Source of the DNA: Clostridiales bacterium
GTDB taxonomy: Bacteria > Bacillota > Dethiobacteria > Dethiobacterales > Dethiobacteraceae
Reading direction: 5' to 3'
Assembly (NCBI GenBank): GCA_018335855.1
Contig: JAGXRM010000055.1
Coordinates: forward strand, 1-64,000
DNA length: 64,000 nucleotides
Shown piece after piece: positions 44,812 through 60,545 of this stretch (the first letter of the stretch is position 1; each line of letters starts with the position of its first letter). A program made the translations under genes and the position numbers. Under the pieces are notes generated by a model, which saw only the letters and a list, made by a program, of their open reading frames with translations, made no database searches and had not been told where the DNA came from.

Positions 44812-46113
44812 TTGCAGAAAAATGGAGGAAAAAGTTTAGTATTTTTAAGACTGCTTGTTTTATCAGCTTTTGTTGTGCTGATTTTTTCCGGGTGCGGGGC
44901 CAAAAAATCTCCTGTATCTCCCGTAGCTGCTGTGGTCAGTGACGCGTGTATCCTCTGTCACATCAGTCCAGAGGCTATTGACATGATGCATGTCCCGCCG
45001 GAAGTTGCCGCCGGCGGCGGTGGGTGAGGCGTGGCGGGCCCGCAGTTAGCGGGCAGCGAAATGTTTTGTATCAGTGAGGATTTTCTCAGCTCGGAACACG
45101 GCAAGCTCGGCTGCATCGCCTGTCACGGCGGTGAAAATGTCGGAGATTTTGGGAAGGCTCATGCCGGGGTAAACCGTTATCCGTCAGCAGATGCCGGCGG
45201 TATCTGTAATCAATGCCACGGTGAAATAGGCGCAACCTTTGCTAATTCCATCCACTATACGGTTCAGGGGATGGCAAACGCTCTGGAAAACTTCACCCAT
45301 CCGGGAGTGTTGGACGTGGACGGCCCGTTGAAGACGGCGTTTGATAACAATTGTTACAAATGCCATGCAACATGTGGTTCCTGCCATGTCAGCAGGCCAA
45401 AAGCGTTTACCGGCGGTCTTCACTCCCAGCATGTTTTCACTAAGCGCCCGCCAATGGAAGACACTTGCTACGGTTGCCATGGTGCCAGAAATGCTGGCGA
45501 ATACATGGGTAAAGTTGGCTATACCAAGGATGTTCACTTTGAGTCCGGCAAACATTGTGCAGATTGTCACAATGTAAGTAATTTCCACGGTACCGGTGTT
45601 GCAGAGCAGAATATGTATGAAGTTGACCTGCCTCAATGTACGGACTGTCATGAAAATATTTATAGTGGTTCGTCCATTCCAGCCCATAACATACATTCTG
45701 CGGACACCATGTCCTGCCAGGTATGTCACGCATCAGCCAATAATAACTGCTTTGACTGTCATGCAACGCAAAAAACGGATGACAGTGTTGCTGGGGTGGC
45801 CGATCAGATGAGAATTATGTTTAAAATCGGCCTAAACCCGGAGAGGACCGAGGAAAGGCCATACAAGTACATTACTTTGCGTCATATTCCCACGACGCCG
45901 GATACCTTTGCCCCGCTGGGCGGTGAACTACCCAACTATGACCTGATTCCCAACTGGAAATACTCACCAACGCATAATATCCAGCGCAAAACAGTTCAGA
46001 ACGAGAGCTGCGATTCTTGTCACGGGAATCAGTACATTTGGCTGCAGGAGAAGGATTTACGGGAGAACGACAGCAAGTCCAACCTGAAACTGGTTGTTCC
46101 GGATCTGCCTTAA
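44812..46113 (+). CDS. Eleven-haem c-type cytochrome lipoprotein with selenocysteine (TGA 45025-45027)
   Basis: Reading through one in-frame TGA gives 433 residues. The lipoprotein signal LRLLVLSAFVVLIFSGCG places it outside the membrane. Eleven CxxCH haem sites are visible: CILCH before the TGA, then CIACH, CNQCH, CYKCH, CGSCH, CYGCH, CADCH, CTDCH, CQVCH, CFDCH and CDSCH. The TGA is codon 72 in the context GGGGUGVAGPQ. Without read-through the signal peptide and first haem would be cut from the other ten. A SECIS-like hairpin follows the TGA. TTG 44812 has GAGAGGTGA at good spacing. A rhodanese lipoprotein follows. Likely an extracytoplasmic electron-transfer or reductase protein; substrate unknown. 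Confidence 0.85.
45038..45054 (+). promoter_or_regulatory. Candidate SECIS hairpin in the cytochrome gene
   Basis: GCCCGC-AGTTA-GCGGGC, a perfect 6-base stem. The loop begins 17 bases after the TGA with G as its second base, inside the known bacterial SECIS range. Confidence 0.75.
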
Positions 46114-46206
46114 TTGCACTCCGGTTTTGAAGGGAGGGATGAATGAAACGTTTTATGGATTTAGTAATAGGTTAGCTATACCAAAAAATAAGGGGGTTAG
46201 TAAGAG

Positions 46207-47166
46207 ATGAAAAAGAATCTTAGATTACTGTTGCTTGTGCTTTTAATCGGTTTAATGATTTTTAGTGTGGTAGGTTGCGGCAAATCAACAACACCAACTC
46301 CGCCGCCCGTTGCGGAAGAACCCGTTGCTGAAGAACCCGAAGCGCTTGATCCTCAGCAGGTGCTACTTGATGCCGCTAAGGCATATTTCCCCAAAGTTGC
46401 GGATAGCAACAATATTATTCCCTCGGAAGATGTAAAGGACATGCTGGAATCCAATCCAGATTCCGTATTAATCATCGATATCCGCAGCGCAGAAGATTTT
46501 GAAGCCGGCCACATCCCTGGAGCGGTCCACAGCCCGTGGGCAAATGTTGGAGAAATCATGGATCGTATTCCCCGCAATAAGCCTGTTGTGGTTGCTTGTT
46601 ACAGCGGCCAGACAGCTGGCCAGACTATCGGCGCACTGAGAGCAGCAGGATTTGACAATGTGAAGTCCCTGTTTTACGGAATTAAGCTTGGCTGGACCGG
46701 GAAAAGCGGGTTTGAGCTGGAAGGTACCGGCATGGTAGCCGCTGCCGATCTGCCGGTAGTATCCGCCCCCACTAGCGAAGAAGAAGAAATTCTTTGGCAG
46801 GCCGCCAAAGATTACTTCCCCAAGGTGGCAACCTCAGCCGAAGGAAACAAAATTATTCCCGGGGCGGACCTGTACGCTGCGCTTCAGGATAACCCAAGTT
46901 CTTTCCATGTTATTGATATCCGCAGCGCCGAGCACTTCGCGGAAGGCCATATCGAGCACTCCGTTCACAGCCCGTGGTCCAAGTTCGGTGATTTGCTAGA
47001 AGGGCTACCCACAAACCGTCCGATTGTTGTAGCATGCTATTCCGGCCAGACGGCGGGACAGACCGTGGGCATACTGCGTATGATGGGTTACGACGCTTAC
47101 TCACTCTTTTACGGTGTACGTGACGGTTATGTCGCCAAAGACAATCTGCCGCTCGTTACAAACTAA
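46207..47166 (+). CDS. Lipoprotein with two rhodanese domains
   Basis: 319-residue protein with a lipobox ending VVGC (Cys24) and a Pro/Glu-rich linker. Two rhodanese domains have nearly identical active sites, VVACYSGQTAGQTIGALRAAG (first, about 126) and VVACYSGQTAGQTVGILRMMG (second, about 278). Each is preceded by VxIIDIRSAEDFEAGHIPG-type segments. Both catalytic Cys are kept, so sulfur or selenium transfer is possible on the outer face. The domains share a KxYFPKVA repeat start, showing internal duplication. It lies 93 bases after the Sec cytochrome and likely works with it. Confidence 0.85.
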   Translation: MKKNLRLLLLVLLIGLMIFSVVGCGKSTTPTPPPVAEEPVAEEPEALDPQQVLLDAAKAYFPKVADSNNIIPSEDVKDMLESNPDSVLIIDIRSAEDFEAGHIPGAVHSPWANVGEIMDRIPRNKPVVVACYSGQTAGQTIGALRAAGFDNVKSLFYGIKLGWTGKSGFELEGTGMVAAADLPVVSAPTSEEEEILWQAAKDYFPKVATSAEGNKIIPGADLYAALQDNPSSFHVIDIRSAEHFAEGHIEHSVHSPWSKFGDLLEGLPTNRPIVVACYSGQTAGQTVGILRMMGYDAYSLFYGVRDGYVAKDNLPLVTN

Positions 47167-47213: not shown

Positions 47214-47972
47214 TTATATAGCAGGTTCTTTTAGCATATTAATAAAATTAAGCACTAGCTTAATCTGGTCTTTATCCAGTGTGCAGATATGTCCGATAAG
47301 CATTTGCACTTTAGTGTCAAAGAGAAGCTCTCTAAGTTCTGGCGTGATGCCAACCATTATCCCTTCAGCATCCTCCTGTTCAAGAATCAAAAAGCAGGTG
47401 GATACACCAAGCGCACTGGCAATCCTTTCAATAGTCTTTAATGAAGGCTGAACTTTTCCCGCCTCTAACTGGGCAATCAACCCTGGTGAAACTTCGGCCC
47501 CGCCAGCAAGCTGTTTTTGTGTCATTCCTTTAGCTTCCCGGGTCGTTTTGATTTTTTTACCTGTTGTTATAAGCTTAGACTGGGTATGTAAAAAAACGCT
47601 AACAGGAACGCTAAAGTATCTGCTAATTTTTTGCAGCGTCTGTATGGAAGGCGTTCTTTCTTCCAGTTCAATTTCACTCAGATAGGTCGTTGAGAGATCA
47701 AGATGTTTGCCCAGCTCTTCCAGTGTCAGTTTTTTTTCTTCGCGCATAGCTCTTACTTTATCTCCCAGGCCACGGGTGCTGATATGTATCTTTCCCAGTT
47801 CTTCGTCAAAATCTAGATTTTCAAGCAGAAAATCTAACGCTTTATTCGTTAATTCTCTTTTACCATCTTCAACTTCCTGCAGATAGGCTAAGGGAAGATT
47901 GCAACTGCGGGAAAGCTCTTCTAATGAAATTTTTTGTTTTGTCCTTATCTTTTTCAAGTGTTTTTCCAGCAT
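47214..47972 (-). CDS. Regulator with three XRE helix-turn-helix domains
   Basis: 252-residue protein with three Cro/C1-type HTH units in tandem: residues about 4-56 (ISLEELSRSCNLPLAYLQEV), 69-125 (LTLEELGKHLDLSTTYLSEIE) and 137-193 (MTQKQLAGGAEVSPGLIAQLE), then a C-terminal helical tail of about 55 residues. GGGAGGG precedes ATG. Three domains would allow binding of an extended or multi-site operator. It is convergent with the rhodanese gene; targets unknown. Confidence 0.8.
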   Translation of the reverse strand: MLEKHLKKIRTKQKISLEELSRSCNLPLAYLQEVEDGKRELTNKALDFLLENLDFDEELGKIHISTRGLGDKVRAMREEKKLTLEELGKHLDLSTTYLSEIELEERTPSIQTLQKISRYFSVPVSVFLHTQSKLITTGKKIKTTREAKGMTQKQLAGGAEVSPGLIAQLEAGKVQPSLKTIERIASALGVSTCFLILEQEDAEGIMVGITPELRELLFDTKVQMLIGHICTLDKDQIKLVLNFINMLKEPAI

Positions 47973-48344: not shown

Positions 48345-48623
48345 TTATGTTCTAAACAAATCGGAGTGTGTCCCGGTGCGGGAGGCCACAAGGATGAGTG
48401 TTTCGCTGTCAACCTGATAGATTAGCAGCCAATCGGGGAGAATATGGCATTCCCGAAAGCCGGTATAGTTCCCGACAAGTGCATGGTCACAATGCTTTTC
48501 AGCAAGCGGCTTTTCTTCCAAAAGTGTTTGCAAGACTTCTTGAAGCAAACCTATATTATAGCCACGCTTTTTCATCAGCTTATAGTCTTTGCGAAATTGT
48601 GTAGTCGTTTTTAATGTCAACAT
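48345..48623 (-). CDS. yafQ: YafQ-family (RelE superfamily) mRNA interferase toxin
   Basis: 92-residue toxin with the family pattern TTQFRKDYKLMKKRGYNIGLL at the N-terminus, the central ECHILPDWLLIYQVD and the C-terminal RTGTHSDLF containing the catalytic-type His and terminal Phe. It overlaps the antitoxin gene by 7 bases. Cleaves mRNA on the ribosome in characterised relatives. Signature of an accessory region. Confidence 0.9.
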   Translation of the reverse strand: MLTLKTTTQFRKDYKLMKKRGYNIGLLQEVLQTLLEEKPLAEKHCDHALVGNYTGFRECHILPDWLLIYQVDSETLILVASRTGTHSDLFRT

Positions 48624-48901
48624 TCGTGGTCAAGCTCCTGAAATAGCTCTTTAGCAGAAGCGTAAGATTTCGCCGGGATTTTTCCACTAGTAATGGCTCT
48701 TGCTTCCTGCATAGCTGCTTCGGTTTCAGCATTATAGTTGGGTTGCTTCATCTCAAATGGTAGGCCACCTACCATCAGAGACTGACGCAGGAAAATGTTT
48801 ACCGCATCGGTTAAGGTAATGCCGAACTTGGCAAAAAGCTGCTCTGCTCCCGCTTTAGTTTCCGGGTCAATTCGAATGTTGATGTTTGCCGTCTTTGCCA
48901 T
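48617..48901 (-). CDS. dinJ: DinJ/RelB-family antitoxin
   Basis: 94-residue antitoxin. The ribbon-helix-helix DNA-binding N-terminus AKTANINIRIDPETKAGAEQL is followed by FGITLTDAVNIFLRQSL and a C-terminal toxin-neutralising segment (AKSYASAKELFQELDHE). ATG 48901 follows GGGGGTGAA. The protein is expected to repress its own operon together with YafQ. Confidence 0.9.
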   Translation of the reverse strand: MAKTANINIRIDPETKAGAEQLFAKFGITLTDAVNIFLRQSLMVGGLPFEMKQPNYNAETEAAMQEARAITSGKIPAKSYASAKELFQELDHEC

Positions 48902-49271
48902 AAGTTCACCCCCTTGCAATCCTATTATAGCCAAATGTGCTCACAATGTCAACACAATGAGATAAGTTTTAGCGTCCATGCGCTACTAGATATGCAGTCC
49001 AAAAAAACAAGTTATAACAACTTCAAGTTTATTCTCATGAGCATTATTCGATTGAAAGGTTTTTTGCAAATGAATAAGAAATTTTTGCCAGTTGAGAACC
49101 AAAAAACCGTTATTTCTGATATTGAAATGGTATAAAGCCAGAGGATTCAGATGGCGATGAATTGGATTGCGTGGTGCTAGCCGGAGATCCTATTTTTTCT
49201 GGACGTATGGTATTTCCGAATACGATTCCTTATCAGGCCGAGCAGGAAAGATTCTAAAAGCCAGTCTACAA
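48902..49271. other. Region with a possible decayed gene end
   Basis: No intact gene. On the plus strand 49126-49257 is open in one frame and reads protein-like (VVLAGDPIFSGRMVFPNTIP, then YQAEQERF and stop) with no start or ribosome site, so it may be the remains of an unidentified gene. The rest is AT-rich without visible signals. Confidence 0.35.
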
Positions 49272-50429
49272 TCAATGGGTGATTTGACCAGACATTATTT
49301 TACGAATCAGCGGCTTTGCCGTAAGTGGCAAATCATCAAGAATGAGCCCGTTGGTCCAGTCGGCCTGAACATGGCCCTGCATGACATACTGGAGAAGGGT
49401 CGCTTCCTGTGTTATGGCCTGTTTAATCTTTTTTAGTGTGCTTATTTTATCCGGTTGGCCAAACCCTATTTTCATAAATTCGTTAATAGAAGTAATCTCT
49501 GTCTTCTCCAAATACTCAAAAATCTTTTGCTCCAGGTTTTGACGGGATCCAAGTATTTTTTGAACCGACTGCATGTACTGTTCAGAACTGGCTGCACCTA
49601 TGGCTCTGGCCGCTAGAATTCCGGAAATACAGGCTATGTCAATGCCTCCACCGTGTAAGGGAGAAGCCAGTCCTGCGGCATCCCCCACCAACAGTGTATT
49701 GCCAAGAACCAGTTCTTTTCGGCGTAAAAGAGGTATGGGGCCACCGGTTTGCCTGAGAATCTGATAATGGTCAAGTTGCTCTTTTTCAATAATCCGTTTT
49801 AATTCTTGATGAATCTGAAGTCCGCTACTGCGCTTGCCAAACCAGCCCACACCTACATTTGCACAGTCCCGGGCTTTGGGAAAAACCCAATAATAGCCAC
49901 AATAATGCGGTTCAACTGCCACTTTTATTTTACCAAACAAAGAGGAAAAATCCCCGGCGAGGGTATACTGTGCTGTCATTCCCAGACGGACTGGCGGCAG
50001 CTTAAACTTTGCTTTTGAAACCGGTGATACACCACTGCTATCTACAATCCAGTCATAATCACTTTGCAAGCATGAAAAATTAATAGCGGTAACAGGTGTA
50101 TTCTCGTAGAGTTGACAGCCGCGCCGACAGGCATCCTCTGCCAACGCTTTTTGCCACTCCGACCGGTCGATTACCCACAGATGAAGGCCGGTACAATCTA
50201 CAGTAAAGGTATCTATAGCAGAAAGTATAGCTTCCTTGACTTTACAGCGGATACCAGCGATGGGAGGGTCTAAAAGTTTGAGCAAATCAAAAAAACCTTC
50301 TGCACAGGAAATACGTTCCCCAACGGACGCTTTTTCAAAGATTGTAACCGATAAACCAAGGGAAGCTGCCTCACGGGCCGCACTAAGTCCCCCGGGACCG
50401 GCTCCAATGATGGCCACCTTATCCCCCAT
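49272..50429 (-). CDS. Geranylgeranyl reductase-family FAD-dependent oxidoreductase
   Basis: 385-residue flavoprotein. N-terminal Rossmann motif VAIIGAGPGGLSAAREAASLG (about 5-25), the central PHYCGYYWVFPKARDCANVGVG (about 185) and C-terminal FAD motif LLVGDAAGLASPLHGGGI (about 267) are those of geranylgeranyl reductases and related archaeal/bacterial proteins. It lacks obvious membrane segments. In Firmicutes such enzymes may reduce isoprenoids or act in corrinoid or electron-transfer contexts; substrate not assigned. Confidence 0.82.
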   Translation of the reverse strand: MGDKVAIIGAGPGGLSAAREAASLGLSVTIFEKASVGERISCAEGFFDLLKLLDPPIAGIRCKVKEAILSAIDTFTVDCTGLHLWVIDRSEWQKALAEDACRRGCQLYENTPVTAINFSCLQSDYDWIVDSSGVSPVSKAKFKLPPVRLGMTAQYTLAGDFSSLFGKIKVAVEPHYCGYYWVFPKARDCANVGVGWFGKRSSGLQIHQELKRIIEKEQLDHYQILRQTGGPIPLLRRKELVLGNTLLVGDAAGLASPLHGGGIDIACISGILAARAIGAASSEQYMQSVQKILGSRQNLEQKIFEYLEKTEITSINEFMKIGFGQPDKISTLKKIKQAITQEATLLQYVMQGHVQADWTNGLILDDLPLTAKPLIRKIMSGQITH

Positions 50430-50465
50430 TTTCTCTACCTCCGCGCTTTTAACTGTTACTACATA

Positions 50466-50852
50466 CTATTTGACAGGGTAACAGCAGATGCATTTATTAA
50501 TACTTTCTGTATCTGTCTGACCCAGATGAATTGTCAGTTCTCCCGCTCCCGCAGTGATATTCAGTTTTTTAACATCAAGCATTGATAAATCCAAATCAGC
50601 ACGGGTCACACCGGTTCTGAATACTATTTCCGCCGGCACCCTCTCTGCCATAGAGAATTCCCAACGTGAAGGGGAGTCGCCTATGCTCCAGGAACGAGAT
50701 TCATCACCAATTATAATTTGTGCCAAGCTTCCACTTCTATGCACATTGATTTCCGGTCCACAGTGAACCCACGGTGTATTGGGAAGAACACAGCAAAAAA
50801 GCCGCCGAAAGATAATCCAATTAATAACTGTATAAAACCGTGTAAATGGCAA
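50466..50852 (-). pseudogene. Fragment of a LiaF/DUF2154-type envelope protein
   Basis: The reading frame ends with RADLDLSMLDVKKLNITAGAG and GELTIHLGQ, the repeat pattern of the C-terminal toast-rack domain of LiaF-like proteins. The N-terminal portion that would carry transmembrane helices lies in a different frame (hydrophobic stretch near 50790-50850), and the end degenerates after the motif. I interpret it as a frameshifted or truncated remnant; a short live protein cannot be excluded. Confidence 0.4.
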
Positions 50853-50894
50853 AAAACTATAATGTATTTAAATAATTTTTTGAGGAGCAAACTC

Positions 50895-51112
50895 ATGACT
50901 GTTCAGTCAGATTTAAAAACAGCTATTGCCGCATGTGAAAGCGCTAAAGGCAACTACGATACTTTTGCGCAGTCTACCGAAGACGAAGCTGCCAAAACAA
51001 TGTTTCAGCAAATGAGCCAAGATATGACAACCATCTCCAGCAACTAAACAGCCGTATGAAATATATTACTGAAAGCAATCCAATGAATCAGGGCCAACAA
51101 CAGCAACAATAA
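50895..51112 (+). pseudogene. DUF1657 protein, frameshifted near its end
   Basis: ATG 50895 follows TGAGGAG. The first 50 codons (MTVQSDLKTAIAACESAKGN ...) match DUF1657 proteins. The frame stops at TAA 51045, but a +1 frame continues directly with LNSRMKYITESNPMNQGQ and a Gln run to TAA 51110-51112, restoring the usual about 70-residue length. One base appears to be missing near 51043. DUF1657 proteins are small sporulation-associated proteins in Bacilli and Clostridia. Confidence 0.65.
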
Positions 51113-51133
51113 GTAAGAGGCTGCCGTACAACA

Positions 51134-51378
51134 TGATATGCTCCCCTTGTAGTAGACAGTTGAAATAATAAAACTGTTAATTACAAGGATGAGCTATTTT
51201 TGTGCCTCACTGGGTGAAAGTATCAGGGCCAGATAAGGTTGCAGCTATTGAAAAATATCTTCGAGACGAAGATTCACTTAGTCATATAGCCACTCAGCTA
51301 GGTGTCCGTGTGCCATCCATCAGAAAATGGCTTAACAAGTATCAATCATTAGGTCCTGACAGCCTGCTTAATCAATGA
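51134..51378 (+). mobile_element. 5' fragment of an IS3/IS150-type insertion sequence
   Basis: A terminal repeat-like TGATATGCTCCCCTTGTAGT is followed by a short ORF at GTG 51202. It encodes an HTH transposase N-terminus (SLSHIATQLGVRVPSIRKWL, ending SLLNQ-stop). The rest of the transposase (OrfB with DDE residues) is absent. The element ends abruptly against an nrfA fragment at about 51377, showing deletion after insertion. Confidence 0.7.
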
Positions 51379-51640
51379 AATTGGCCGCCAGGAAATGCGA
51401 ACCTTGGTCTGCGCCCAGTGCCATGTTACCTACTACCTCGACCCTAAAACAGCAGAGGTCAAAATCCCCTGGTCGCAAGAACCAAATATAAATGCGGTTG
51501 AAAACTACTTTTCTGCCTCTCTTTTCCGCGAATGGACACATACCATGACCGAGGCTGATTTAGTTAAGCTACGCCATCAGGACTACGAATTTTTCCTGGG
51601 CAGTAATCATTTTGAGGCCGGCGTAACCTGTGTCGATTAG
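51377..51640 (+). pseudogene. Internal fragment of cytochrome c nitrite reductase (nrfA)
   Basis: The frame GRQEMRTLVCAQCHVTYYLD (CxxCH haem), then VKIPWSQ and VKLRHQDYEFFLG through GVTCVD-stop matches the middle of NrfA, the pentahaem ammonia-forming nitrite reductase. The next haem motif (usually ADCHMP) is lost to the stop. It is missing both ends and abuts the IS fragment, so it is a relic. Confidence 0.75.
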
Positions 51641-51669
51641 GACACCTTACTAAGTAAAGGGAGGTATAA

Positions 51670-52185
51670 ATGATGTTGCGAGACGCTTATGAGCTCATGA
51701 AATTACTCCCAATTGGGACTGAGGCTGTGAAATTCGAACTCAAGGATATTTTTGGAAATATAGTTACACTAGACGATTTTTTGGGTAAGTATTGGGTAGT
51801 GCTGGAGTTTGGCTCCTTCACGTGACCTCCCTTCCGGAGCCAGATGGCTCCCATGGAGAGCGTAGCCGCTGAATTAAAATCAAAGCCCGTACGATTTTTA
51901 ATCATTTACACTCGTGAAGCCCACCCCGGCCAATATAATTTTAAGCATATTCCTCAACACTGCAACATAGAAGACAAGAGCAAGATGGCAGCAATGCTTC
52001 AACAAGAAACTGGCTTGGAAAACAGAACCATATTGATTGATGATATTAATGATTCTGTAACGAGAACGTATCGGGGATTTCCCAACAAGGCGTATATCAT
52101 TGGCCTTAACGGCAAAATAGTTTACGCCGATCGCTGGGCTTCTGCCGATAGAATCAGTAAAGAGGTACACAGTCTCTTGAAATAA
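51670..52185 (+). CDS. Iodothyronine deiodinase-like selenoprotein (TGA 51823-51825 read as Sec)
   Basis: Read-through gives 171 residues. VVLEFGSFTUPPFRSQM places Sec52 exactly where vertebrate deiodinases have NFGSCTUPPF. Downstream, FLIIYTREAHPGQYNFK matches the deiodinase VIYIEEAH region, and the C-terminal half is a thioredoxin-like fold with RTILIDDINDSVTRTYRGFP and KAYIIGLNGKIVYADRW. AAAGGGAGG precedes the paired ATG codons at 51670 and 51673. A hairpin of SECIS form follows the TGA. Thyroid hormone is not the substrate; a peroxidase or reductive dehalogenation role is open. It lies downstream of decayed genes and carries its own ribosome site. Confidence 0.88.
51836..51851 (+). promoter_or_regulatory. 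Candidate SECIS hairpin in the deiodinase-like gene
   Basis: GGAGCC-AGAT-GGCTCC, a perfect 6-base stem. The loop starts 17 bases after the TGA and has G as its second base. Confidence 0.75.
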
Positions 52186-52274
52186 CTATAAACAAGTAAC
52201 TGACTATGCTCAGGAACATTACAGTGAATAATTACCAAAAGCATCTCTGAATTTACAAATTTCATAATGAAAAG

Positions 52275-52305
52275 CAAAGTGGGCTTTAATTCGTAGCCCA
52301 CTTTG
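52275..52305 (+). terminator. Terminator after the deiodinase-like gene
   Basis: CAAAGTGGGCT-TTAATTCGT-AGCCCACTTTG, 11-base stem, then GTGTATTTATT. Confidence 0.75.
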
Positions 52306-52405
52306 TGTATTTATTAAATGTATAAGAGGTTTTCATTTATAATTTCCACAGAATAAGTTAAGCGAAAACATCAATAATAAATATAATAAGGGAAGGTGAT
52401 TTTCT

Positions 52406-53515
52406 TTGAAGATGTTTACTGCCAAAAGAGCTGCTTTACTTATACTGGTTGCAGGGATTATTTTTTTTGTATCCTCCCTGCTCTTAAATGATACCCGGGG
52501 GCAAAAGGAACCGGATGATCCAAATATTCCTGAAGAAGAACAGCAAGCTCTGGATAAATTTTTTCTAAACCTTAAATCAGGAGGGCCCTCTAAAGATGGA
52601 ATTCCCCCTATTGAAAACCCCAATTATCTATCCATAACTGACGCCGATGAAAATATTGATGATAATGAGGTCGTATTTGTTGTTGAATCTAGTGATGGTG
52701 TTTTTATTTATCGTCAGCGAATTCTTGCCTGGCATGAAATCGTAAATGAAACGTTTTCAGGGGAGAAGATGAGCATTACCTACTGCCCCTTGACTGGTTC
52801 TGCTGTAGGCTTTAAGGGGGCTGTTTCCAGAGGGGAAACCACCTTTGGAACATCGGGTAAGCTTTTAAACAGTAACTTGGTGATGTATGACCGGTTAACA
52901 GGCAGCTATATTCCTCAGTTGCTGGGAAAGGCTATCAATGGGAACTTAAAGGGAGAAAGACTGGATGAATTTCCAATTATCTGGACTAGGTGGTTTAAAG
53001 CAAAATCATTTTATGAAGAAGCCCAGGTTTTATCAGAAAAGACAGGTTTTATCAGAAATTATCGAGGGGATCCTTATGGCTCATATCTGGAAAAAAACAA
53101 TTACTATGATAGCGGTGGAGCTTTATTTCCCGTCATGCATCAAGATAACAGATTTGAGCCAAAAGAAGTTGTCATGGCTGGAAGAGTAAATGAAACACCT
53201 TTTGCTATTTTAAAGCAAAAGATTAGGAGCGAAAAAGTGATGAACCTGGAACTTGAAAACATCCCATTGGTCGCTCTTTATGATGGGGAGCTGGATACGG
53301 TGAGAATTTTTAGAAGAATGGATCAGGATCAAACGTTAACCTTTAGATTTGAAAACGGTGATTTTCTTGATGAAAATACCATGTCAATATGGAATGAAAG
53401 AGGAGCAGCGGTGGAAGGACAACAGCAAGGCGCCCAGCTGGAAGCTATAAATTCTTTTGACGTAATGTGGTTTGCCTGGGTTGCATTTCACCCTGAAACA
53501 GAAGTTTATGAATAG
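52406..53515 (+). CDS. DUF3179 domain protein, membrane-anchored
   Basis: 369-residue protein with an N-terminal anchor (about 8-26, ALLILVAGIIFFVSSLLL) and a DUF3179 domain. RILAWHEIVNETFSGEKMSI and TYCPLTGSAVGFKG are the family signature with its single conserved Cys, followed by TTFGTSGKLLNSNLVMYDR. TTG 52406 follows GGGAAGGTGAT. It probably faces the outside. Function unknown; the Cys in a YCPLTG loop suggests a redox or metal role. It overlaps the next membrane-protein gene by 8 bases. Confidence 0.82.
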   Translation: MKMFTAKRAALLILVAGIIFFVSSLLLNDTRGQKEPDDPNIPEEEQQALDKFFLNLKSGGPSKDGIPPIENPNYLSITDADENIDDNEVVFVVESSDGVFIYRQRILAWHEIVNETFSGEKMSITYCPLTGSAVGFKGAVSRGETTFGTSGKLLNSNLVMYDRLTGSYIPQLLGKAINGNLKGERLDEFPIIWTRWFKAKSFYEEAQVLSEKTGFIRNYRGDPYGSYLEKNNYYDSGGALFPVMHQDNRFEPKEVVMAGRVNETPFAILKQKIRSEKVMNLELENIPLVALYDGELDTVRIFRRMDQDQTLTFRFENGDFLDENTMSIWNERGAAVEGQQQGAQLEAINSFDVMWFAWVAFHPETEVYE

Positions 53516-54074
53516 GAACAATAGTTTGCACAAAATACGCAATATCTTAAAAAATAAAAGTGCATTAATTCCTGGAATAGTTATAGGTACTGTTTATTTT
53601 ATTCTATACCTGATAAGCATAAATCACTTGTTCTTAGCAGTTGGTGAATTTGAGATAGCTGTGATTGATAATCCTGGATCGAAATTTTTTACAATGAGAG
53701 CGCCTTTTTTATGGGAACCGATTGCCTCGATTTCATTCTTTGGGTTAAAGCTCTTTATTGCCCCTTTAAATATACTAATAGGGGTACTCCTTTCTCTGAT
53801 GGTGATGCTAAATATAGCGGTGGCCGTTTTTAGCTATCGATGCAAAAGATCTTGCCGCACCAACTTAGGCTACTCCTTTGCCGGCTTTTTGCCGGCTATG
53901 CTCACTGGTTTCGCCTGTTGTGCACCAACTTTTGTCATTGCTCTGGCACCAGTGCTGTCTTCCTTTACGGTATTCTTTGTTTCACTTCAGCCGTTTTTAA
54001 TCCCATTCAGTGTAGCAGTTATGACTCTGGGTTTGCTCTGGAGCCTATCGAGAATAACTGAACTTAATATCTAA
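53508..54074 (+). CDS. Polytopic membrane protein with a Cys-Cys motif, unrecognised
   Basis: 188-residue protein with four to five hydrophobic helices and MLTGFACCAPTFVIALAPVL in the third membrane segment. The paired Cys in a helix next to Pro resembles thiol-relay membrane proteins, but the family is not recognised. ATG 53508 overlaps the DUF3179 stop (ATGAATAG), so they are translationally coupled and may form a two-protein unit. Confidence 0.7.
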   Translation: MNRNNSLHKIRNILKNKSALIPGIVIGTVYFILYLISINHLFLAVGEFEIAVIDNPGSKFFTMRAPFLWEPIASISFFGLKLFIAPLNILIGVLLSLMVMLNIAVAVFSYRCKRSCRTNLGYSFAGFLPAMLTGFACCAPTFVIALAPVLSSFTVFFVSLQPFLIPFSVAVMTLGLLWSLSRITELNI

Positions 54075-54171
54075 CATAATCTATATTTTAACAGGGCCTC
54101 TTTTCTGTTTGTTATCTCTTGTTTTACTTTTTCCAATCCAAAGCATTTCGAGGAACATTTTCAGTTGACTA

Positions 54172-54915
54172 TCATAATTGAACAGGTAGTTTTTTAATGC
54201 TACCCGGTGATTCGATATCCTGCAATGCCTGTAAAGCCATGGTAACTACACGAGTTTGTGTTTCCACGTCAAAAGCCTTACCGGTAACTCTTCCCAGAGG
54301 AAAATTAACATGTACTGCTCTGGGAACCCGGATTTTTGCGGTTAATCCCTGCATTAATGTTATACTCACAGTAATGAGACCGGCTGTTTCCAGTTCCCGC
54401 TGAATCAATCCCACCGATTGATGGCACAGCGGTCAGCCTGGAGTAAGTAAAACTATATCAGTTTCTTGTTTTAATAGTTCCCGGGCTACTTTGCCTGCAT
54501 TGGCAATCAGTGTTTCATGCAGGGCATTAAGGATAAAGCCCATAAACCCATAATTTGTTGCAGAGATTCCTTTAATAAAGCCGGACTGCACCAGTTCCTC
54601 AAGTCTTGTTATGGGGAAGACACAATTAATATCTTTATCTGCGTCAGTATGGTCATAATGAGTGTGAGTGATTAGATAGTCCTCTAGTGGCGCTTTAGCC
54701 GAAACTTCCCGAAAGGAAGCATCCCCCTTTTTTGCCTTGACATCAAAGGGTGCCTGATTCTTTAAATGCACGCCAGCGGTAGTAACAAGGGCGACGCGAC
54801 ATTCGTTTAGAGTTTTTTGCAGGGGCTGCCACGGTACTTCTTTGCCCGTGTTATCAACTATAAATGGTTTAACAAGCTTCTGTGTCAAATTTTGTTTTAA
54901 CATATATTCTCTCAT
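54172..54915 (-). CDS. Selenoprotein B family reductase-like protein (PrdB-like; TGA 54433-54435 read as Sec)
   Basis: Read-through yields 247 residues (243 if the second ATG, 54903, is used). RVALVTTAGVHLKNQAPFD, ITHTHYDHTDADKDINCVFP and GFMGFILNALHETL precede VLLTPGUPLCHQSVGLIQRE, matching the glycine/betaine/D-proline reductase selenoprotein B family (PrdB/GrdB), with Sec161 at its known place. A 7-base-stem SECIS-like hairpin follows the TGA. No proline reductase PrdA or other Prd/Grd subunits are nearby, so the substrate is probably different. Confidence 0.85.
54404..54422 (-). promoter_or_regulatory. Candidate SECIS hairpin in the PrdB-like gene
   Basis: On the minus strand ATCAATC-GGTGG-GATTGAT; perfect stem, loop starting 18 bases after the TGA with G first. 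Confidence 0.75.
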
Positions 54916-55054
54916 CCCTTCAAGTTACTATCCTGCCTGGGAAAGCGGGATATACTGCACAGAGGACTTTCTTTGCGGATGCTGCGGAGCATTATATTGT
55001 ACAGTTGTAGTATTATAGTTTGGTCATAGTCTTATACAAGTTCTTACATACATT

Positions 55055-55786
55055 CTATGATGGAAGCATCTGCTTTTCCCGCCAATAGATTAGCACCAAA
55101 ATTACGGCAAAAAGAACGATACTTGAAAACTGGGCAGTATTGAAGACAACAAAAGTAGGTTCACTGCGGAAGTAATCGATAAAAGAACGGGCGGCAAAAT
55201 ACCCGGCGAGATAGGTCAGGAACAGCTGCCCTTCTCTTACCCTGTCTCTCAGATACCAGAGGACAAAGAAGATAAGCAGTGTAGCTATCATCGTATACAG
55301 CGGGATATTGTGATAGGGCACGCCGCCAACCAGCCTCGGCCAGGGCGCCGATGGCGCATGCAGGCCGTAGACATCGCAACCGAGTCGGGCGATTGCTTCC
55401 CCCAGGGCGAGGGATGGGGCGAAAACATCAGCCATGGCCCAAAATTTAACTTTCCGGCGGCGGACAAACCAGATTGCGACCAACACTCCTCCGGTAAGAC
55501 CGCCCAGAAAAGCCAGGCCGCCTTCGTGAATACGGAAAAGATAGAGGGGGTCAGCGAGAAAAAGATTGAAATTCAACAACACGGAGAGAATGCGGGAACC
55601 GACGACGGCTCCGACAACCGCGTAAATGGCAAACTCGAAGATCAGATCCGGTTCAATTTTTTTGGCAATGGCACGACGGTGGGCAAGGGCCAGCCCAACT
55701 AAAATAGCAGCAACCAACCCCAATCCGTAAAGATGGAAAGTCAATGGCCCAAGGTAAAATGAGGGCTCCACATAATTCAGAAGCAT
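55055..55786 (-). CDS. Lgt-like prolipoprotein diacylglyceryl transferase family protein
   Basis: 243-residue membrane protein with about seven helices. The Lgt landmark RIHEGGLAFLGGLTGG (about 84-99) is present, but the usual GRIGNFxN signature is replaced by ARLGCDVYGLHA (about 134-145). The conserved Arg is kept while the Asn residues are not. It could attach diacylglycerol to lipoprotein Cys or be a diverged relative. AAGGAG lies within the end of the upstream ccdA-like gene, and the two overlap by 10 bases. It is the third gene of the Sec-thioredoxin operon. Confidence 0.75.
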   Translation of the reverse strand: MLLNYVEPSFYLGPLTFHLYGLGLVAAILVGLALAHRRAIAKKIEPDLIFEFAIYAVVGAVVGSRILSVLLNFNLFLADPLYLFRIHEGGLAFLGGLTGGVLVAIWFVRRRKVKFWAMADVFAPSLALGEAIARLGCDVYGLHAPSAPWPRLVGGVPYHNIPLYTMIATLLIFFVLWYLRDRVREGQLFLTYLAGYFAARSFIDYFRSEPTFVVFNTAQFSSIVLFAVILVLIYWREKQMLPS

Positions 55787-56211
55787 CTGTTCATCTCCTT
55801 TGCACTAGAACTATTGTACCCTTTTACATTTAACGGAACCTTCTTAATTCCCGGCATTGAAAAAGTTAAAACTCCCAAAAGGTGTAACCCCATTACTATT
55901 GCCACCACAGCCAGAAGGTAATACCACCCGGCCCCAATCCGGCCAAAAAAGAGGCCAAAATAAGAGGCAATAAAACCGAGAATGGCAAAAGTCACAGCCA
56001 AGCCTGTCACAAACGACAGCGACATCAAAAAACCTTTTATTCTTGACCCTTCGCTGTAGCCGCCGATGTAGCCGACCATAACAGGTGTCATTGACAAAAT
56101 GCAGGGGCTAAAACTTGTAACTAAGCCGCCTGCAAAAACGATCACGTAAGTGAGAATAGACGTGTTTGCAAGGGAATTTGGTATAATTTCAGAGAAAAAC
56201 AGATCCAGCAA
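55777..56211 (-). CDS. CcdA-like membrane protein, half length
   Basis: 144-residue protein with three to four helices, carrying AGGLVTSFSPCILSMTPVMVGYIGGYS with the first active Cys and Pro of CcdA/DsbD transmembrane domains. CcdA is usually about 220-240 residues with a second Cys helix (SPCATP), absent here. After KKVPLNVKGYN the sequence becomes SSSAKEMNRCF, coding from the lgt ribosome site, so a deletion probably removed the second half. A single-Cys half might still dimerise. TTG start with GAGGTGAGG upstream; 21 bases after the Sec thioredoxin. Confidence 0.7.
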   Translation of the reverse strand: MLDLFFSEIIPNSLANTSILTYVIVFAGGLVTSFSPCILSMTPVMVGYIGGYSEGSRIKGFLMSLSFVTGLAVTFAILGFIASYFGLFFGRIGAGWYYLLAVVAIVMGLHLLGVLTFSMPGIKKVPLNVKGYNSSSAKEMNRCF

Positions 56212-56232
56212 AACTACCTCACCTCAATAGGC

Positions 56233-56670
56233 TTAATTATCCAGAATTTGTGCTATTCTGCTCTCTATATTGCCTTTTGTCAAAACCCCTGTATCGTTTG
56301 CAACAATTTCACCATTGCTGTCAATATAGAAAAATGCCGGGATGTATCTAACCATGAATTCATTCGCCATGCGGTTGCCTTCCTGATCGCCAACATCGAC
56401 AATAACAAAAACAACTTGATCTTCATACTTCTCTTTAAGAGCCATAACCACGGGCTCCATTAGTTTGCATGTAATTCACCAATCAGCATAAAATTCTACA
56501 AATACAGGTTTTCCTTCGGCCAGTGCCTGTTCATAAAGGGCAATTGGATCAGGTGTAGCGGAAAACTGACTCTCAGTCCGATTCAAAAAAGGAATATATG
56601 GTTTTGCCATTACACCAACAACCAGTAAGCCTACAAATACCAGGATTAACCGTTTTACACTAGTCTTCAA
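56233..56670 (-). CDS. Membrane-anchored thioredoxin-like selenoprotein (WUxxC; TGA 56476-56478 read as Sec)
   Basis: Read-through gives 145 residues. The N-terminal anchor (KRLILVFVGLLVVGVMA) is followed by VFVEFYADWUITCKLMEPVV, the thioredoxin active site with Sec65 in place of the first Cys, and the fold continues through RYIPAFFYIDSNGEIV, containing the cis-Pro. TTG 56670 follows AGAGGAGAA. The extracytoplasmic domain would be reduced by the neighbouring CcdA-like protein. A BlaI-type palindrome lies just upstream, so expression is probably regulated with blaI-blaR1. Confidence 0.88.
56439..56457 (-). promoter_or_regulatory. Candidate SECIS hairpin in the thioredoxin-like gene
   Basis: On the minus strand GAGCC-CGTGGTTAT-GGCTC; loop of 9 bases beginning 24 bases after the TGA, with G second. 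Confidence 0.6.
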
Positions 56671-56700
56671 GCTCGATTCTCCTCTCGTTTTTATTGCCAG

Positions 56701-56719
56701 GCACTACTCTTTGTAGTGC
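56701..56719. promoter_or_regulatory. BlaI-type operator, Sec-thioredoxin operon
   Basis: GCACTAC-TCTTT-GTAGTGC, a perfect palindrome 31 bases before the thioredoxin start. The same half-sites and 5-base spacer occur upstream of the blaI-like gene. Confidence 0.75.
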
Positions 56720-56742
56720 AAATCCCGAAAAAAAGAGCAGCG

Positions 56743-57597
56743 TCAGACACAACCCTGCCCAAAACTAATAAGTATACCTGCTAAAAAAAGGAAGGTAGCC
56801 GCAATATGGGCGGGCGGGGCAATTCGAATTTGTCGGTTACCTGATAACAGCTGGGCGATTCGCAAATCGGGTGTTGTATTAGGCTCGATCAACCATACCG
56901 GAACTGAGATATTTTCCACATCTGAGAACACTTTCAAAAATGCGGATGCCAAATATCTTTTGTCCGGAATCTTGTTCAATGAAGCCTGATCAGCGGCTAA
57001 TTCTTTAAATTGGTCATAGCTGCGAAATAGATACTTTGCTAAAGGCAGAAAGAAAAGGCTCCCTTTTATTGCCCTGCTGATAACCACCTTTAGCGGATCT
57101 GAATGGTAGAGGTGGTACTGTTCATGTAAAAGCACCGCTTCCATTTCAGACATGCTAAACGCGGCTGCGAGCTTGCTCGAAACAACGATTTGCGGACGAG
57201 AAAATCCGTACGTAAAAACCAGGGGAGTGTCACTGTTTATGCATACTGTATGTTTTAGAAGGCCCAACCTGTCTAAGAGCCGGATTAACTCACAGGGTGG
57301 AGTCGTTCTCAATGCTGACAGCTTCCTGTTCAGCCTGAGGAAAGAGAGATACTGTTTCACAGTAAAATAAATAAAAAATGAGATGATGAAAAACAAAGCA
57401 CCTGTCAGTAAAAGTAACATTATTTGATTAATCAGGTTATTTTGAATGGCAAAGCCAAGTCTGACAAACTTAAATTTGTAAAATACAGTAAGAAACAAGA
57501 CTCCCGCAACAGCGGCAAAAAGGGCTGTCAACCCGTAAAATGACACCTGTGCTTTAATGTGGGGATGCGAGTAGTCACTCTTTAAATGTATCATCAT
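56743..57597 (-). CDS. M56-family (BlaR1/MecR1-like) membrane metallopeptidase
   Basis: 284-residue protein with N-terminal helices (two segments in residues 20-70), a zinc protease motif VLLHEQYHLYHSDPLK (HExxH variant with Q, about 153-157) and the downstream FKELAADQASL providing the third ligand region. One C-terminal helix follows. No penicillin-binding sensor domain is present, so the signal is likely not a beta-lactam. It starts inside the last 23 bases of the blaI-like gene and is expected to cleave that repressor. Confidence 0.85.
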   Translation of the reverse strand: MMIHLKSDYSHPHIKAQVSFYGLTALFAAVAGVLFLTVFYKFKFVRLGFAIQNNLINQIMLLLLTGALFFIISFFIYFTVKQYLSFLRLNRKLSALRTTPPCELIRLLDRLGLLKHTVCINSDTPLVFTYGFSRPQIVVSSKLAAAFSMSEMEAVLLHEQYHLYHSDPLKVVISRAIKGSLFFLPLAKYLFRSYDQFKELAADQASLNKIPDKRYLASAFLKVFSDVENISVPVWLIEPNTTPDLRIAQLLSGNRQIRIAPPAHIAATFLFLAGILISFGQGCV

Positions 57598-58030
57598 TTT
57601 TCATATCCTTTGAATTTTTAATAAGATCCTCCAAAGCCTTTAAATATTCCGGGCTTGCTTTTTCAAGAGTCTGCACAAAAGAAGCAATTGCATCCTCTCC
57701 ATATTCATGTAAAAGCTCTTCAGTTACTTGCCTGGAAATATCGTTAAGGAAGCACTCCTTTGTTTGCACAGGCAAATAACAGTAAGCTTTTTCACCGGGT
57801 TTCTTCTGAAGAAATCCTTTATCTGACAAACGGTTCATTACAGTCATCACAGTATTAAAGGCAATTGGCCTTTTTAAACTTATGCTTTCCGTAACTTCTT
57901 TAATCATCACACCTTCTCCCCGGGACCAGGCAACTTCCATGATTTCTGTCTCGAGATCCCCTAAAACCCTGTTAATACCACGCTTTTCAAGATTAAAAGA
58001 TTGAATTAGCTTTTTTTTCAAGCGCATCAC
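57575..58030 (-). CDS. BlaI/MecI/CopY-family transcriptional repressor
   Basis: 151-residue winged-helix repressor. DLETEIMEVAWSRGEGVMIKEV (about 25-46) and the recognition region IAFNTVMTVMNRLSDKGFLQKK (about 56-77) are typical of BlaI, and the C-terminal helices serve dimerisation and BlaR1-dependent cleavage. GTG 58030 or a downstream TTG may be the start. A palindromic operator lies between its promoter and start, indicating autoregulation; the same site upstream of the thioredoxin operon indicates a shared regulon. Confidence 0.88.
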   Translation of the reverse strand: MMRLKKKLIQSFNLEKRGINRVLGDLETEIMEVAWSRGEGVMIKEVTESISLKRPIAFNTVMTVMNRLSDKGFLQKKPGEKAYCYLPVQTKECFLNDISRQVTEELLHEYGEDAIASFVQTLEKASPEYLKALEDLIKNSKDMKNDDTFKE

Positions 58031-58160: not shown

Positions 58161-58199
58161 AAGCAGAGAATAACGCATCCGGCTGATGATTCTCTGCTT
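58161..58199 (-). terminator. Terminator after the CC-repeat microprotein
   Basis: AAGCAGAGAAT-N17-ATTCTCTGCTT, 11-base stem, followed on the minus strand by TGCTTTGTT. Confidence 0.7.
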
Positions 58200-58216
58200 A
58201 ATACAGTCTCCCTGGA

Positions 58217-58363
58217 CTATGACAAATTTTGCTCTATTTTTTTGCAGCAATCCTTAATCTTTTGCACCTCTTGCTGTACGCTCTGTTGCGAAGTCGCCGC
58301 TTCGATCTTGTTGCAGCAATCTTTTATTTGCTCCGCTTCCTGGTTTACCTGGTTATTAATCAC
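58217..58363 (-). CDS. 48-residue microprotein with two IKDCC repeats
   Basis: GTG 58363 follows the excellent ribosome site GGAGGTGATAAT. The protein has two similar helical halves: EAEQIKDCCNKIE and EVQKIKDCCKKIE, each with vicinal cysteines, in an otherwise charged coiled-coil-like sequence without membrane segments. The repeats, the terminator and the start support a real gene. Family not recognised; vicinal Cys pairs suggest metal, selenium or thiol binding. Confidence 0.7.
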   Translation of the reverse strand: MINNQVNQEAEQIKDCCNKIEAATSQQSVQQEVQKIKDCCKKIEQNLS

Positions 58364-58436
58364 ATTATCACCTCCTTCTCCGTGCTAAGCTTATTTTCTT
58401 CTGCAGTTCTTCCCTGGTTGCTTTCAGTAAGTTAAA

Positions 58437-59030: not shown

Positions 59031-59303
59031 AATATCTGTTCCCACCTTTACGCGTTGCAATCTAATCCCACAACGACGGCAATAAAACTGCACTACCTCT
59101 TCCAGATTTAACCGTCCTTGGCCAGTTCCGCCGCTTATCATACAGAAAAAATTACTTATCTGCTTTTAATATTCGTAAAAAGACAGATAATATACTGACA
59201 CTGCCTGCAACCTGAAGCAGTAATATATGTAAAGTATTTTACATCATACTGTATTGAACATCTGTTATAATTAAATTGATAAAAAAGAAACGGAGGTTTT
59301 AGT

Positions 59304-60545
59304 ATGGTCAGCCTCGAAAAGCTCCATCCTGAGGAGCGAAACTTCCTCGAAAACGTACCCTGTCCGACATTTGCAGCACAGCCTTGGGTCAGGGGCAAAA
59401 AACTGAAGGAAAGGCGAGTCGCAATAATTTCCACGGCCGGTCTGCATCAGCCCGAAGACCGCCCCTTTACCTCTGTGGAAGGTGATTACTACCGTATAAT
59501 TCCCGGGGACATTCAATCAAATAACCTGGTAATGAGCCATGTCTCGGTCAATTTTGACAGGACAGGCTTTTACCGGGACTTAAATGTGGTCTTTCCCATT
59601 GACCGCCTGAGGGAACTTGCAGAAAGCGGCGATATCGGCAGCATAGCAAGCTTTCATTATTCTTTCATGGGCGCTGATGATCCTATGAGATGGGAGCAGA
59701 CGGCACGCCATCTTGCAGGCCTGTTAAAAAAAGACAATATTGACGCCGTGTTGCTGGTGCCGGTCTGACCGCTTTGTACGCGCGCCGTTGGCGTGCTGGC
59801 ACACTTTCTTGAGGAGGAAGGGCTTGCTACCACGCAAATCAGCCTGATTCGCCTGCATACGGATGTTATCAAGCCGCCAAGAGCCCTTTGGGTGCCTTTT
59901 GAACTTGGTCGCCCGTTAGGAGAGCCAAATAACCCAGCTTTTCAGAAGCGTGTTCTGATGTCCGCCCTCGGTCTGCTTGAAGCGCCACGGGGCCCGCTGC
60001 TGATCGATTTCCCGGATGATACCCCGTTATTAGGGGGGGCGCCGGTTATGCTTGCCTGCCCATATGTTCCGCCGGCAGAGGATGCCGAGACCACGCAGGC
60101 CGACCGGCTTTGCAAGACCTTTAAAACAGAAATGACATCGATGAGACCCTGGTATGATCAGGCCTTAAAAAAGCGAGGGCGTACCATAGTCGGAATTAGC
60201 AAACTCACACCCGAGGCTATCGCAGATTTTTTGTGTTCTTTCCTTGAAGGCAGCACTCCTACTCAGAACCCGCGCCAGGATGTATCTCTTGCATACCAAC
60301 TCGGGTATTCAGTAGAAGACCTGAAGGCCTACTACTATGAGGCTATCACGGCGCAACCTGGTGCTGATGTTCTGTCTAGCGAAGATCTCGATAAATGGTT
60401 TTGGGAAAATACAGTTGCCGGAAAATTCTTGCGGGAATTAAGAGGAATTTGTCTTAAAAACGAAGATAAATTGTTGCAACAGACCGCCGCAAGGCGGATA
60501 ATACCTCAAAAAACCCTGTTAACAAATACTGGTGGTAAAGGATAG
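59304..60545 (+). CDS. Selenoprotein B family reductase-like protein (TGA 59766-59768 read as Sec)
   Basis: Read-through yields 413 residues. RRVAIISTAGLHQPEDRPF, VMSHVSVNFDRTGFYRDLNV and the Phe-rich HYSFMGADDP precede VLLVPVUPLCTRAVGVLAHF, the selenoprotein B family active site with Sec155. After about residue 230 comes a distinct C-terminal extension of about 180 residues (IVGISKLTPEAIADFLCSFL, YYYEAITAQPGADVLSSEDL) not present in the shorter paralogue in this window. GGAGG precedes ATG 59304. SECIS-like hairpin after the TGA. Substrate unknown. Confidence 0.85.
59780..59796 (+). promoter_or_regulatory. Candidate SECIS hairpin in the long selenoprotein B-like gene
   Basis: GCGCGCC-GTT-GGCGTGC with one G-U pair; loop begins 19 bases after the TGA with G first. 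Confidence 0.7.

Follow-up and report, generated by a model that had tools for sequence, protein, structure and literature searches.

Do the six in-frame TGA codons that crowd a short segment of a Dethiobacteraceae genome encode selenocysteine (Sec), and if so, do the genes that contain them belong to a single system? The window analyzed here, bases 1 to 64000 of contig C55, comes from a 2.96-Mb assembly that is 99.5% complete. In our reading of its open reading frames (ORFs), the six codons, all within 27 kb, read through recognizable proteins: a multihaem c-type cytochrome, a bacilliredoxin-like protein, an iodothyronine-deiodinase-like protein, two PrdB-like proteins, and a thioredoxin (Table 1). 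These frames match an earlier sequence-only reading of this DNA, which described five TGA-containing genes in recognizable families with a sixth at 33.6-34.0 kb and proposed that they form one selenium-dependent redox module in accessory DNA. We find instead that the cytochrome, together with an adjacent rhodanese, is the part of the cluster that is conserved as a unit.

A predicted selenocytochrome family

The cytochrome represents a predicted selenoprotein family present in no catalogue that we searched. Its members typically have 11 haems, and the Sec is carried by a glycine-rich loop lying between haem 1 and haem 2. Ordinary annotation of the gene would start past the TGA, at a GTG at position 45031, and give a protein of 360 amino acids; the read-through frame begins with an N terminus that by eye is lipoprotein-like (..FSGC). 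Named relatives sharing at least 62% identity occur in Dethiobacter and Syntrophomonadaceae metagenome-assembled genomes (MAGs), with a fragment in a Desulfovibrio MAG, and the block GGGGUGVAGPQLAGS is common to three full-length orthologues. In the homologue rows, which comprise one row per locus with the window's own locus included, all six for this gene have Sec at the TGA column (two of them being one contig), and the gene was found in 3 of 19 genomes of the order.

A five-row profile of the cytochrome searched against 398 genomes of the phylum gave matches in 35, and we read the best 16 loci (L091 to L106), leaving weaker matches out. Eleven of these carry TGA, with L091 and L092 repeating the related genome G005 and the window's own gene, one has Ser, and four lack the Sec loop. 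Altogether this makes 19 distinct homologues, of which 14 have TGA at the column (the window's own gene; G015, a genome of the same family in another genus [L014/L017]; G005; L018; L019; L093 to L097; and L099 to L102), one has Ser, four are loop-less, and none has Cys. Among the genomes searched, TGA-bearing cytochromes occur in seven bacterial families, to which two named MAGs can be added. The Sec loop is divergent in L099 to L102 (GESUAGPPPP, GEGUAGPPPP), and L097 has 10 CxxCH motifs by count.

Downstream hairpins reach -6 kcal/mol in 11 of the 14 TGA loci. Across five cytochrome orthologues, 96.7% of the cells of the stem are paired, compared with 43 to 57% when the stem is slid, and two of the six pairs are changed on both sides, one of them occurring as G-C, U-A, and C-G. 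The covariation score and the percentage paired are both reached in 6 of 500 shuffles. With only five related sequences, the covariation is supportive and not conclusive.

The 119 prokaryotic selenoprotein families or subfamilies tabulated in PMC13188914 include two kinds of multihaem cytochrome, ExtKL (NF040886) and the TIGR04315 octahaem family. At E ≤ 0.01 the window cytochrome matched neither NF040886 nor TIGR04315 (octahaem tetrathionate reductase), and six relatives gave no TIGR04315 match at E ≤ 1e-4. A profile search of the PDB with the cytochrome likewise returned no match at E ≤ 0.01. A distant ExtKL-like match without TGA lies elsewhere in the genome (L120, G000:C38:76286-77392; 60.7 bits against a cut-off of 250).

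Genetic coupling to a rhodanese

The rhodanese that follows the cytochrome in the window scores 101 bits against PF00581 (cut-off, 22.2) and retains the active-site Cys in both of its loops. A rhodanese lies within ∼1.5 kb of the cytochrome at 12 of the 14 TGA loci and also beside the Ser form, L098. These neighbours were Pfam positive in 10 of 10 cases tested, the window's own gene was assigned by Pfam and that of L102 by motif only, and signal-peptide-like N termini were seen on the rhodaneses by eye. None of the four loop-less homologues has a rhodanese within 1.5 kb, and three have none in their wider stretches of 9.5 to 15 kb. By these gene-order comparisons the cytochrome family is genetically tied to a rhodanese, and the conserved unit is the cytochrome with its rhodanese, not the five genes as a group.

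We also read five wider neighbourhoods of TGA loci (L115 to L119, in G120, G180, G209, G172, and G131). Beside the pair in G120 is a molybdoenzyme with PhsA thiosulphate reductase as its best NCBIfam match (489.5 bits, below the cut-off of 694), along with a TorD-like protein (PF02613), a 4Fe-4S protein, and NrfD. A 4Fe-4S protein and a cytochrome b561 are encoded near the pair in G180, while in G209 a cytochrome b561 and a six-CxxCH NapC-like cytochrome lie directly upstream, with two PF04143 sulphur-transport genes beyond one opposite-strand gene.

Selenocysteine decoding at the six TGA codons

The genome encodes a complete bacterial Sec-decoding system (selA, selB, selC with a UCA anticodon, and selD), for which the sequence-only reading had proposed a search. 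In addition to a tRNA-Sec with the UCA anticodon, we found selB (384.9 bits; cut-off, 242.25), selA (578.5 bits; cut-off, 267.9), and a selD with an internal TGA (379.6 bits; cut-off, 125), the three protein genes being adjacent on contig C20 in the order selD-selB-selA. The tRNA-Sec gene (L001 1497-1593, on G000:C57) is near a contig end and ∼265 bases from a frame at 162-1232 that by eye is integrase-like, and the locus is possibly an integration site. A second match to the tRNA-Sec model (G000:C32:16609-16698, L002 1501-1594; 55.2 bits against a cut-off of 47) has a GCA anticodon and is a tRNA-Cys of the previously described selC* type (PMC7609411).

The same reading had suggested aligning the read-through proteins with homologues to look for Cys or Sec, and one or the other occupies the TGA column in 59 of the 59 rows read. 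For the YtxJ-like gene, found in 8 of 97 genomes of the class, 4 of 8 loci have Sec and 4 have Cys, and for the deiodinase-like gene, found in 9 of 97, 2 of 11 have Sec and 9 have Cys. The two Sec rows of the latter are the window's own gene and an identical copy, and its nine Cys proteins look ResA-like by reading. For the thioredoxin (matches in 87 of 97 genomes), all 20 loci that the search returned have Sec; one of them is an identical copy, and the many weaker, stop-free matches to ordinary thioredoxins fall outside this count. All 14 rows of the long PrdB-like gene (13 of 97 genomes) have Sec, including the 248-aa PrdB-like gene of the window and its identical copy. Hairpins of -6 or lower follow the codon in every thioredoxin (20 of 20) and long PrdB-like (14 of 14) homologue and in 3 of 4 Sec forms of YtxJ, but in none of its 4 Cys forms and in 1 of the 9 ResA-like Cys genes.

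All six window TGAs are followed by a hairpin with G in the first or second position of the loop, as the sequence-only reading had described for five of them and proposed to examine for all six by prediction of bacterial selenocysteine insertion sequences (bSECIS). Its placement of the hairpin, beginning 17 to 24 bases after the TGA, needs correction, in that it is the loop and not the hairpin that starts at about that distance: 22 nucleotides (nt) for YtxJ, 16 for the cytochrome, 16 for the deiodinase-like gene, 17 for the PrdB-like gene, 23 for the thioredoxin, and 18 for the long PrdB-like gene. In the same order, the hairpin energies are -7.6, -11.6, -10.4, -6.2, -7.2, and -12.1 kcal/mol. 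The bSECIS model given in the Fig. 2 legend of PMC13188914 has an apical loop of 3 to 9 nt with G in its first two positions, 16 to 37 nt past the TGA, and a minimum free energy (MFE) of at most -7.5 kcal/mol. Loop size, G, and distance agree with this model at all six TGAs, and the apical hairpin alone attains the MFE at four, with the PrdB-like and thioredoxin genes above the limit; folding of the ∼57 bases past the TGA gives -12.1 to -21.9 kcal/mol across all six. As background, 396 of 4,085 TGC/TGT sites in the window reach -6.2 or lower, so that six of six would arise by chance with a probability of ∼1e-6 if sites were independent. No Rfam family matched at gathering thresholds in the 40- to 64-kb part of the window.

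A mechanical scan of contig bases 1 to 84000 for TGA read-through ORFs with a hairpin recovered exactly the six genes, and the same rule applied to control codons in the same 84 kb gave no TAG and five TAA matches. Twenty stretches of 20 kb elsewhere in the genome, picked and not random, gave 12 TGA, 2 TAG, and 5 TAA matches. Only selD was recognized among these 12, in a stretch chosen because it holds selD, and the remaining 11 were dismissed as noise by eye only. The controls are therefore not clean, and the scan alone is no proof; homology carries the case. The dense clustering noted by the sequence-only reading nonetheless holds, with six Sec genes in 27 kb against the single deliberately included selD in the 400 kb picked elsewhere. 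On these comparisons we regard all six Sec codons as almost certainly real. Independent support is weakest for the deiodinase-like gene, because only its family match and hairpin back it.

A candidate sulphane-sulphur redox pair

The idea of a rhodanese coupled to a Sec-containing multihaem cytochrome is already known from the Geobacter extHIJKL cluster, which encodes the rhodanese lipoprotein ExtH and the cytochrome ExtKL, the annotation of which is split at TGA (PMC6148476, PMC5877670). In the pentahaem ExtKL the TGA separates the cytochrome part from a small reading frame that follows it, whereas in the window cytochrome Sec is placed between haems 1 and 2; what differs here is the protein family, the 11 CxxCH motifs, and the sulphur contexts. 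Dethiobacter alkaliphilus reduces thiosulphate, its type strain reduces or disproportionates sulphur, and the species is described as having neither DsrAB nor a molybdopterin sulphur reductase and as lacking canonical sulphur and thiosulphate reductases (PMC10376724; PMC5609068). Its gene DealDRAFT_1917, first called a thiosulphate sulphurtransferase, adjoins the rhodanese DealDRAFT_1918 (PMC5609068). The product was later corrected to a multihaem cytochrome, 22% identical to the SirA sulphite reductase, and is up in thiosulphate-grown relative to ferrihydrite-grown AHT1T cells (PMC10376724). The two loci are alike in that a multihaem cytochrome stands directly beside a rhodanese, and DealDRAFT_1917 and the window cytochrome are probably of the same gene family, although the former is described among octahaem cytochromes and the latter has no TIGR04315 match. 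The selenocytochrome of G005 is likewise followed by a tandem rhodanese, and given this gene order and the resemblance of G005 to the AHT1T genome, it is quite likely the same gene as DealDRAFT_1917. Selenium is not mentioned in the available part of PMC5609068 on Dethiobacter, and PMC10376724 was not among the Dethiobacter selenocysteine literature that we found.

We lean slightly toward the view that the cytochrome and rhodanese form a sulphane-sulphur redox pair with Sec as the sulphur acceptor. Thiosulphate or polysulphide would supply sulphane sulphur to the rhodanese, which would carry it as a Cys persulphide and transfer it to the Sec selenolate of the cytochrome's flexible GG-U-G loop. 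Electrons from quinol, delivered by cytochrome b561-, NapC-, or NrfD-type partners, would then travel along the haem wire and reduce the bound sulphur to sulphide; running in reverse, the wire would oxidize sulphide. The Sec loop would serve as an additional element for catalysis or docking, since loop-less 11-haem relatives exist and no rhodanese lies within 1.5 kb of the four loop-less homologues that we read. A bolder possibility, which we put forward only tentatively, is a new class of sulphur-respiratory enzyme in which an exported rhodanese supplies Sec on an 11-haem cytochrome and thiosulphate or polysulphide is reduced, or sulphide oxidized, outside the membrane without molybdenum or sirohaem. 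If true, such a class would account for some of the sulphur metabolism seen in Dethiobacter and in several other Bacillota, and it would have been missed because TGA splits the gene. TGA-bearing members of the family are likely misannotated through this split, and Sec in a thiosulphate-raised cytochrome would give the Dethiobacter sulphur question a testable chemical site.

Several observations weigh against this interpretation. In L098 (G475:C120, in a genome that is 72% complete, the gene being cut by the contig end) the hairpin is intact and TCA (Ser) replaces the Sec codon, a change that may reflect a mutation, a sequencing error, or the loss of Sec. Three of the 14 TGA cytochromes have weak hairpins (L094, -5.7; L095, -3.1; L097, -4.0), the number of doubly changed pairs is attained in 58 of the 500 shuffles, and an AlphaFold model of the cytochrome is unusable (predicted local distance difference test score [pLDDT], 31). 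No rhodanese was found at L018 (a 13-kb contig) or at L019 (a broken gene in which homology ends after ∼200 codons), a rhodanese stands ∼1.9 kb away from the reading frame of the loop-less homologue L106 (in L114), and the coupling count comes from related loci, with L100 to L102 being one genus, and carries no correction for phylogeny. The PhsA/NrfD set occurs in G120 only of the five neighbourhoods, and in G172 and G131 the rhodanese is the only partner obvious by eye. Among AHT1T cytochromes, thiosulphate also raises 1443 and, most strongly, 1451 and 1670, and 2539 is the most abundant (PMC10376724), so that DealDRAFT_1917 is one of several candidates. Its orthologue in strain Z-1002 was detected under Fe(II) oxidation and not under Fe(III) reduction, thiosulphate not being compared (PMC10376724). 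The probable tie of DealDRAFT_1917 to the selenocytochrome family is one of gene order and genome resemblance and not of sequence.

The pair could instead be an oxyanion or metal reductase (selenite, tellurite, or Fe), a Gram-positive counterpart of Geobacter ext in which Sec handles Se/Te or the metal. In extHIJKL, too, a rhodanese lipoprotein accompanies a pentahaem cytochrome that contains Sec, loss of extI impairs selenite and tellurite reduction in Geobacter (PMC6148476, PMC5877670), ExtM is among the weak profile matches, Dethiobacter reduces Fe(III), and the Z-1002 orthologue was seen only under an iron-oxidizing condition. We nevertheless think this unlikely: the cytochrome does not match NF040886, the genome's sole match to that family lies elsewhere and below the cut-off, sulphur-type genes appear in two of the five wider neighbourhoods, and the probable AHT1T orthologue responds to thiosulphate relative to ferrihydrite. 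Still less likely, in our judgment, is that the cytochrome is an ordinary one for extracellular electron transfer in which Sec relays electrons or ligates a haem, with the rhodanese as an assembly or repair partner. The motif count and lipoprotein-like N terminus fit such a role, and many multihaem cytochromes serve extracellular electron transfer in Dethiobacter (PMC10376724), but L103 and L104 keep 11 CxxCH motifs without the loop, which is hence not needed for haem binding, and none of the 15 loop-bearing homologues read has Cys, Met, or His at the Sec column.

In favour of the single envelope redox module envisaged by the sequence-only reading, 16 kb of DNA holds five Sec genes, interspersed with thioredoxin, CcdA-like, and DUF3179 genes. 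We rejected this module on synteny and on the shared stretch described below, and consider it improbable: the genes differ in strand and in history, their parts are apart in G015 and G005, and broken genes lie between them. Nor does the description of this DNA as accessory hold throughout, as the cytochrome and YtxJ-like genes sit in DNA collinear with that of relatives. Most improbable of all is that the TGAs are real stops, in pseudogenes or through sequencing errors. Broken genes do occur nearby (an NrfA fragment and a half-length CcdA), and the hairpin scan alone is unspecific, but divergent genomes have the TGA at the same alignment column, with conserved protein and hairpins after it, the cytochrome stem has compensatory changes, and the Sec machinery is present. 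This conservation and the hairpins led us to reject the true-stop reading, and we retain the sulphane-sulphur pair as the preferred account of the cytochrome and rhodanese.

The other selenoproteins of the window

The remaining predicted selenoproteins fall into or near known families. The YtxJ-like protein matches the bacilliredoxin BrxC/YtxJ family TIGR04019 over its full length at 113.7 bits (cut-off, 77.25), is also above the PF11009 cut-off, and has Cys orthologues in the same bacterial family; the window protein has Sec in place of the active Cys of bacilliredoxin. A Sec form of BrxC/YtxJ is absent from the 119-family table in the available part of PMC13188914, and none relevant was found in largely open-access literature. 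Such a Sec bacilliredoxin-like protein would extend the selenoprotein catalogue. The deiodinase-like protein scores 58.7 bits against PF00837 (cut-off, 27), with an FGSFTUPPF motif, and falls below the cut-off of the NCBIfam deiodinase family (86.5 against 250 bits). The thioredoxin scores 66.0 bits against PF00085 (cut-off, 23.5), with WUITC.

The genes at 54172-54915 and 59304-60545 both belong to the GRDB family PF07355 (33.8 and 34.5 bits; cut-off, 22), with UxxC at the active site, and score 178.4 and 111 bits against PrdB (TIGR04483), far below its cut-off of 300. A search for the PF09338 partner found no match in the genome, nor did any control genome match. Identity as a D-proline reductase was rejected on the low TIGR04483 scores together with this missing partner, with the same limit as to controls. 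The CxxT of the DUF3179 protein would fit the UxxC/T motif given for Sec forms of that family in PMC13188914, taking the positions to be equivalent. As in the Sao and Tso systems, several selenoprotein genes stand side by side here; Sao and Tso are described as operons (PMC13188914), whereas the window genes are on both strands and differ in history.

Table 1. Predicted selenoprotein genes and associated features of the window (U, Sec)
Feature	Position	Strand	Remarks
11-haem c-type selenocytochrome	44803..46113	+	Sec in AAGGGGUGVAGPQLAG; 11 CxxCH counted; orthologues with TGA
Cytochrome Sec TGA codon	45025..45027	+	
Cytochrome bSECIS hairpin GCCCGC-AGTTA-GCGGGC	45038..45054	+	
Tandem-domain rhodanese, two active-site CYSGQTAG loops	46207..47166	+	Lipoprotein-like N terminus by eye
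XRE-type regulator-like gene (named by reading)	47214..47972	-	Right end of block collinear with G005/G015
Sec bacilliredoxin BrxC/YtxJ-like, SATUPVS	33644..34033	-	TGA 33892-33890, hairpin 33859-33872
Shared stretch	49083..57778	.	Matches the end of G015 contig C15 at 99.8% identity (8697 columns)
Iodothyronine-deiodinase-like selenoprotein, SFTUPPF	51670..52185	+	TGA 51823-51825, hairpin 51836-51851
DUF3179 protein with YCPLTG	52406..53515	+	
PrdB-like selenoprotein, 248 aa, TPGUPLC	54172..54915	-	TGA 54435-54433, hairpin 54404-54422
Half-length CcdA/DsbD-transmembrane protein	55780..56211	-	Profile 4-114 of 219; probably truncated; ahead of lgt
WUxxC thioredoxin (WUITC)	56233..56670	-	TGA 56478-56476, hairpin 56438-56458; hydrophobic N terminus by eye
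Long PrdB/GRDB-like selenoprotein, 413 aa, PVUPLC	59304..60545	+	TGA 59766-59768, hairpin 59775-59801

Composite origin of the cluster

By comparison with its relatives the cluster is a composite of a relative-collinear block (the Sec bacilliredoxin-like gene and the cytochrome-rhodanese pair), a shared and possibly transferred block (the deiodinase-like, PrdB-like, and Sec-thioredoxin genes), and the long PrdB-like gene with relatives of its own. The window is collinear, with gaps, with G005 at 33.7-48.0 kb and with G015 at 40.8-48.0 kb, at ∼67 to 74% DNA identity. The DNA around the cytochrome-rhodanese pair is thus collinear with that of two related genera and the DNA around the YtxJ-like gene with that of one (G005), the G015 YtxJ homologue being on another contig than its cytochrome region. 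G005 has no match to the deiodinase-like or long PrdB-like genes, and its thioredoxin match is weak and stop-free. A relative of the long PrdB-like gene in G016 (69%) stands beside other genes.

The differences between the shared stretch and its G015 counterpart all fall in the first ∼470 bases, after which 8,230 bases are identical. This 8.7 kb carries the deiodinase-like, PrdB-like, and thioredoxin genes, its flanks differ in G015 contig C15, and the G015 cytochrome is on another contig, C12. It represents either a recent transfer between genera or a binning or assembly artefact of the metagenomes. Within it are a transposase helix-turn-helix remnant (51202-51375) and, next to this, a fragment of an NrfA-type cytochrome c552 (51395-51640; profile 166-249 of 438).

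Other features surround these blocks. A YafQ-type toxin gene with an antitoxin-like frame by eye (48345-48979) is just left of the shared stretch. The flank of the stretch in G015 contig C15 (L078 8697-14600) has oxidoreductase-like, glycosyltransferase-like, and radical-SAM-like frames, which may be selenium or arsenic associated. A 338-base segment is 84% alike between the window (50812-51132) and a site further along the same G015 contig (L085 2186-2523) and is perhaps an insertion-sequence remnant. Just past the long PrdB-like gene are a 21-nt inverted repeat (60627-60672; 95% complementary) and a 75-nt direct repeat (60680-60754 and 63148-63222; 76% identical).

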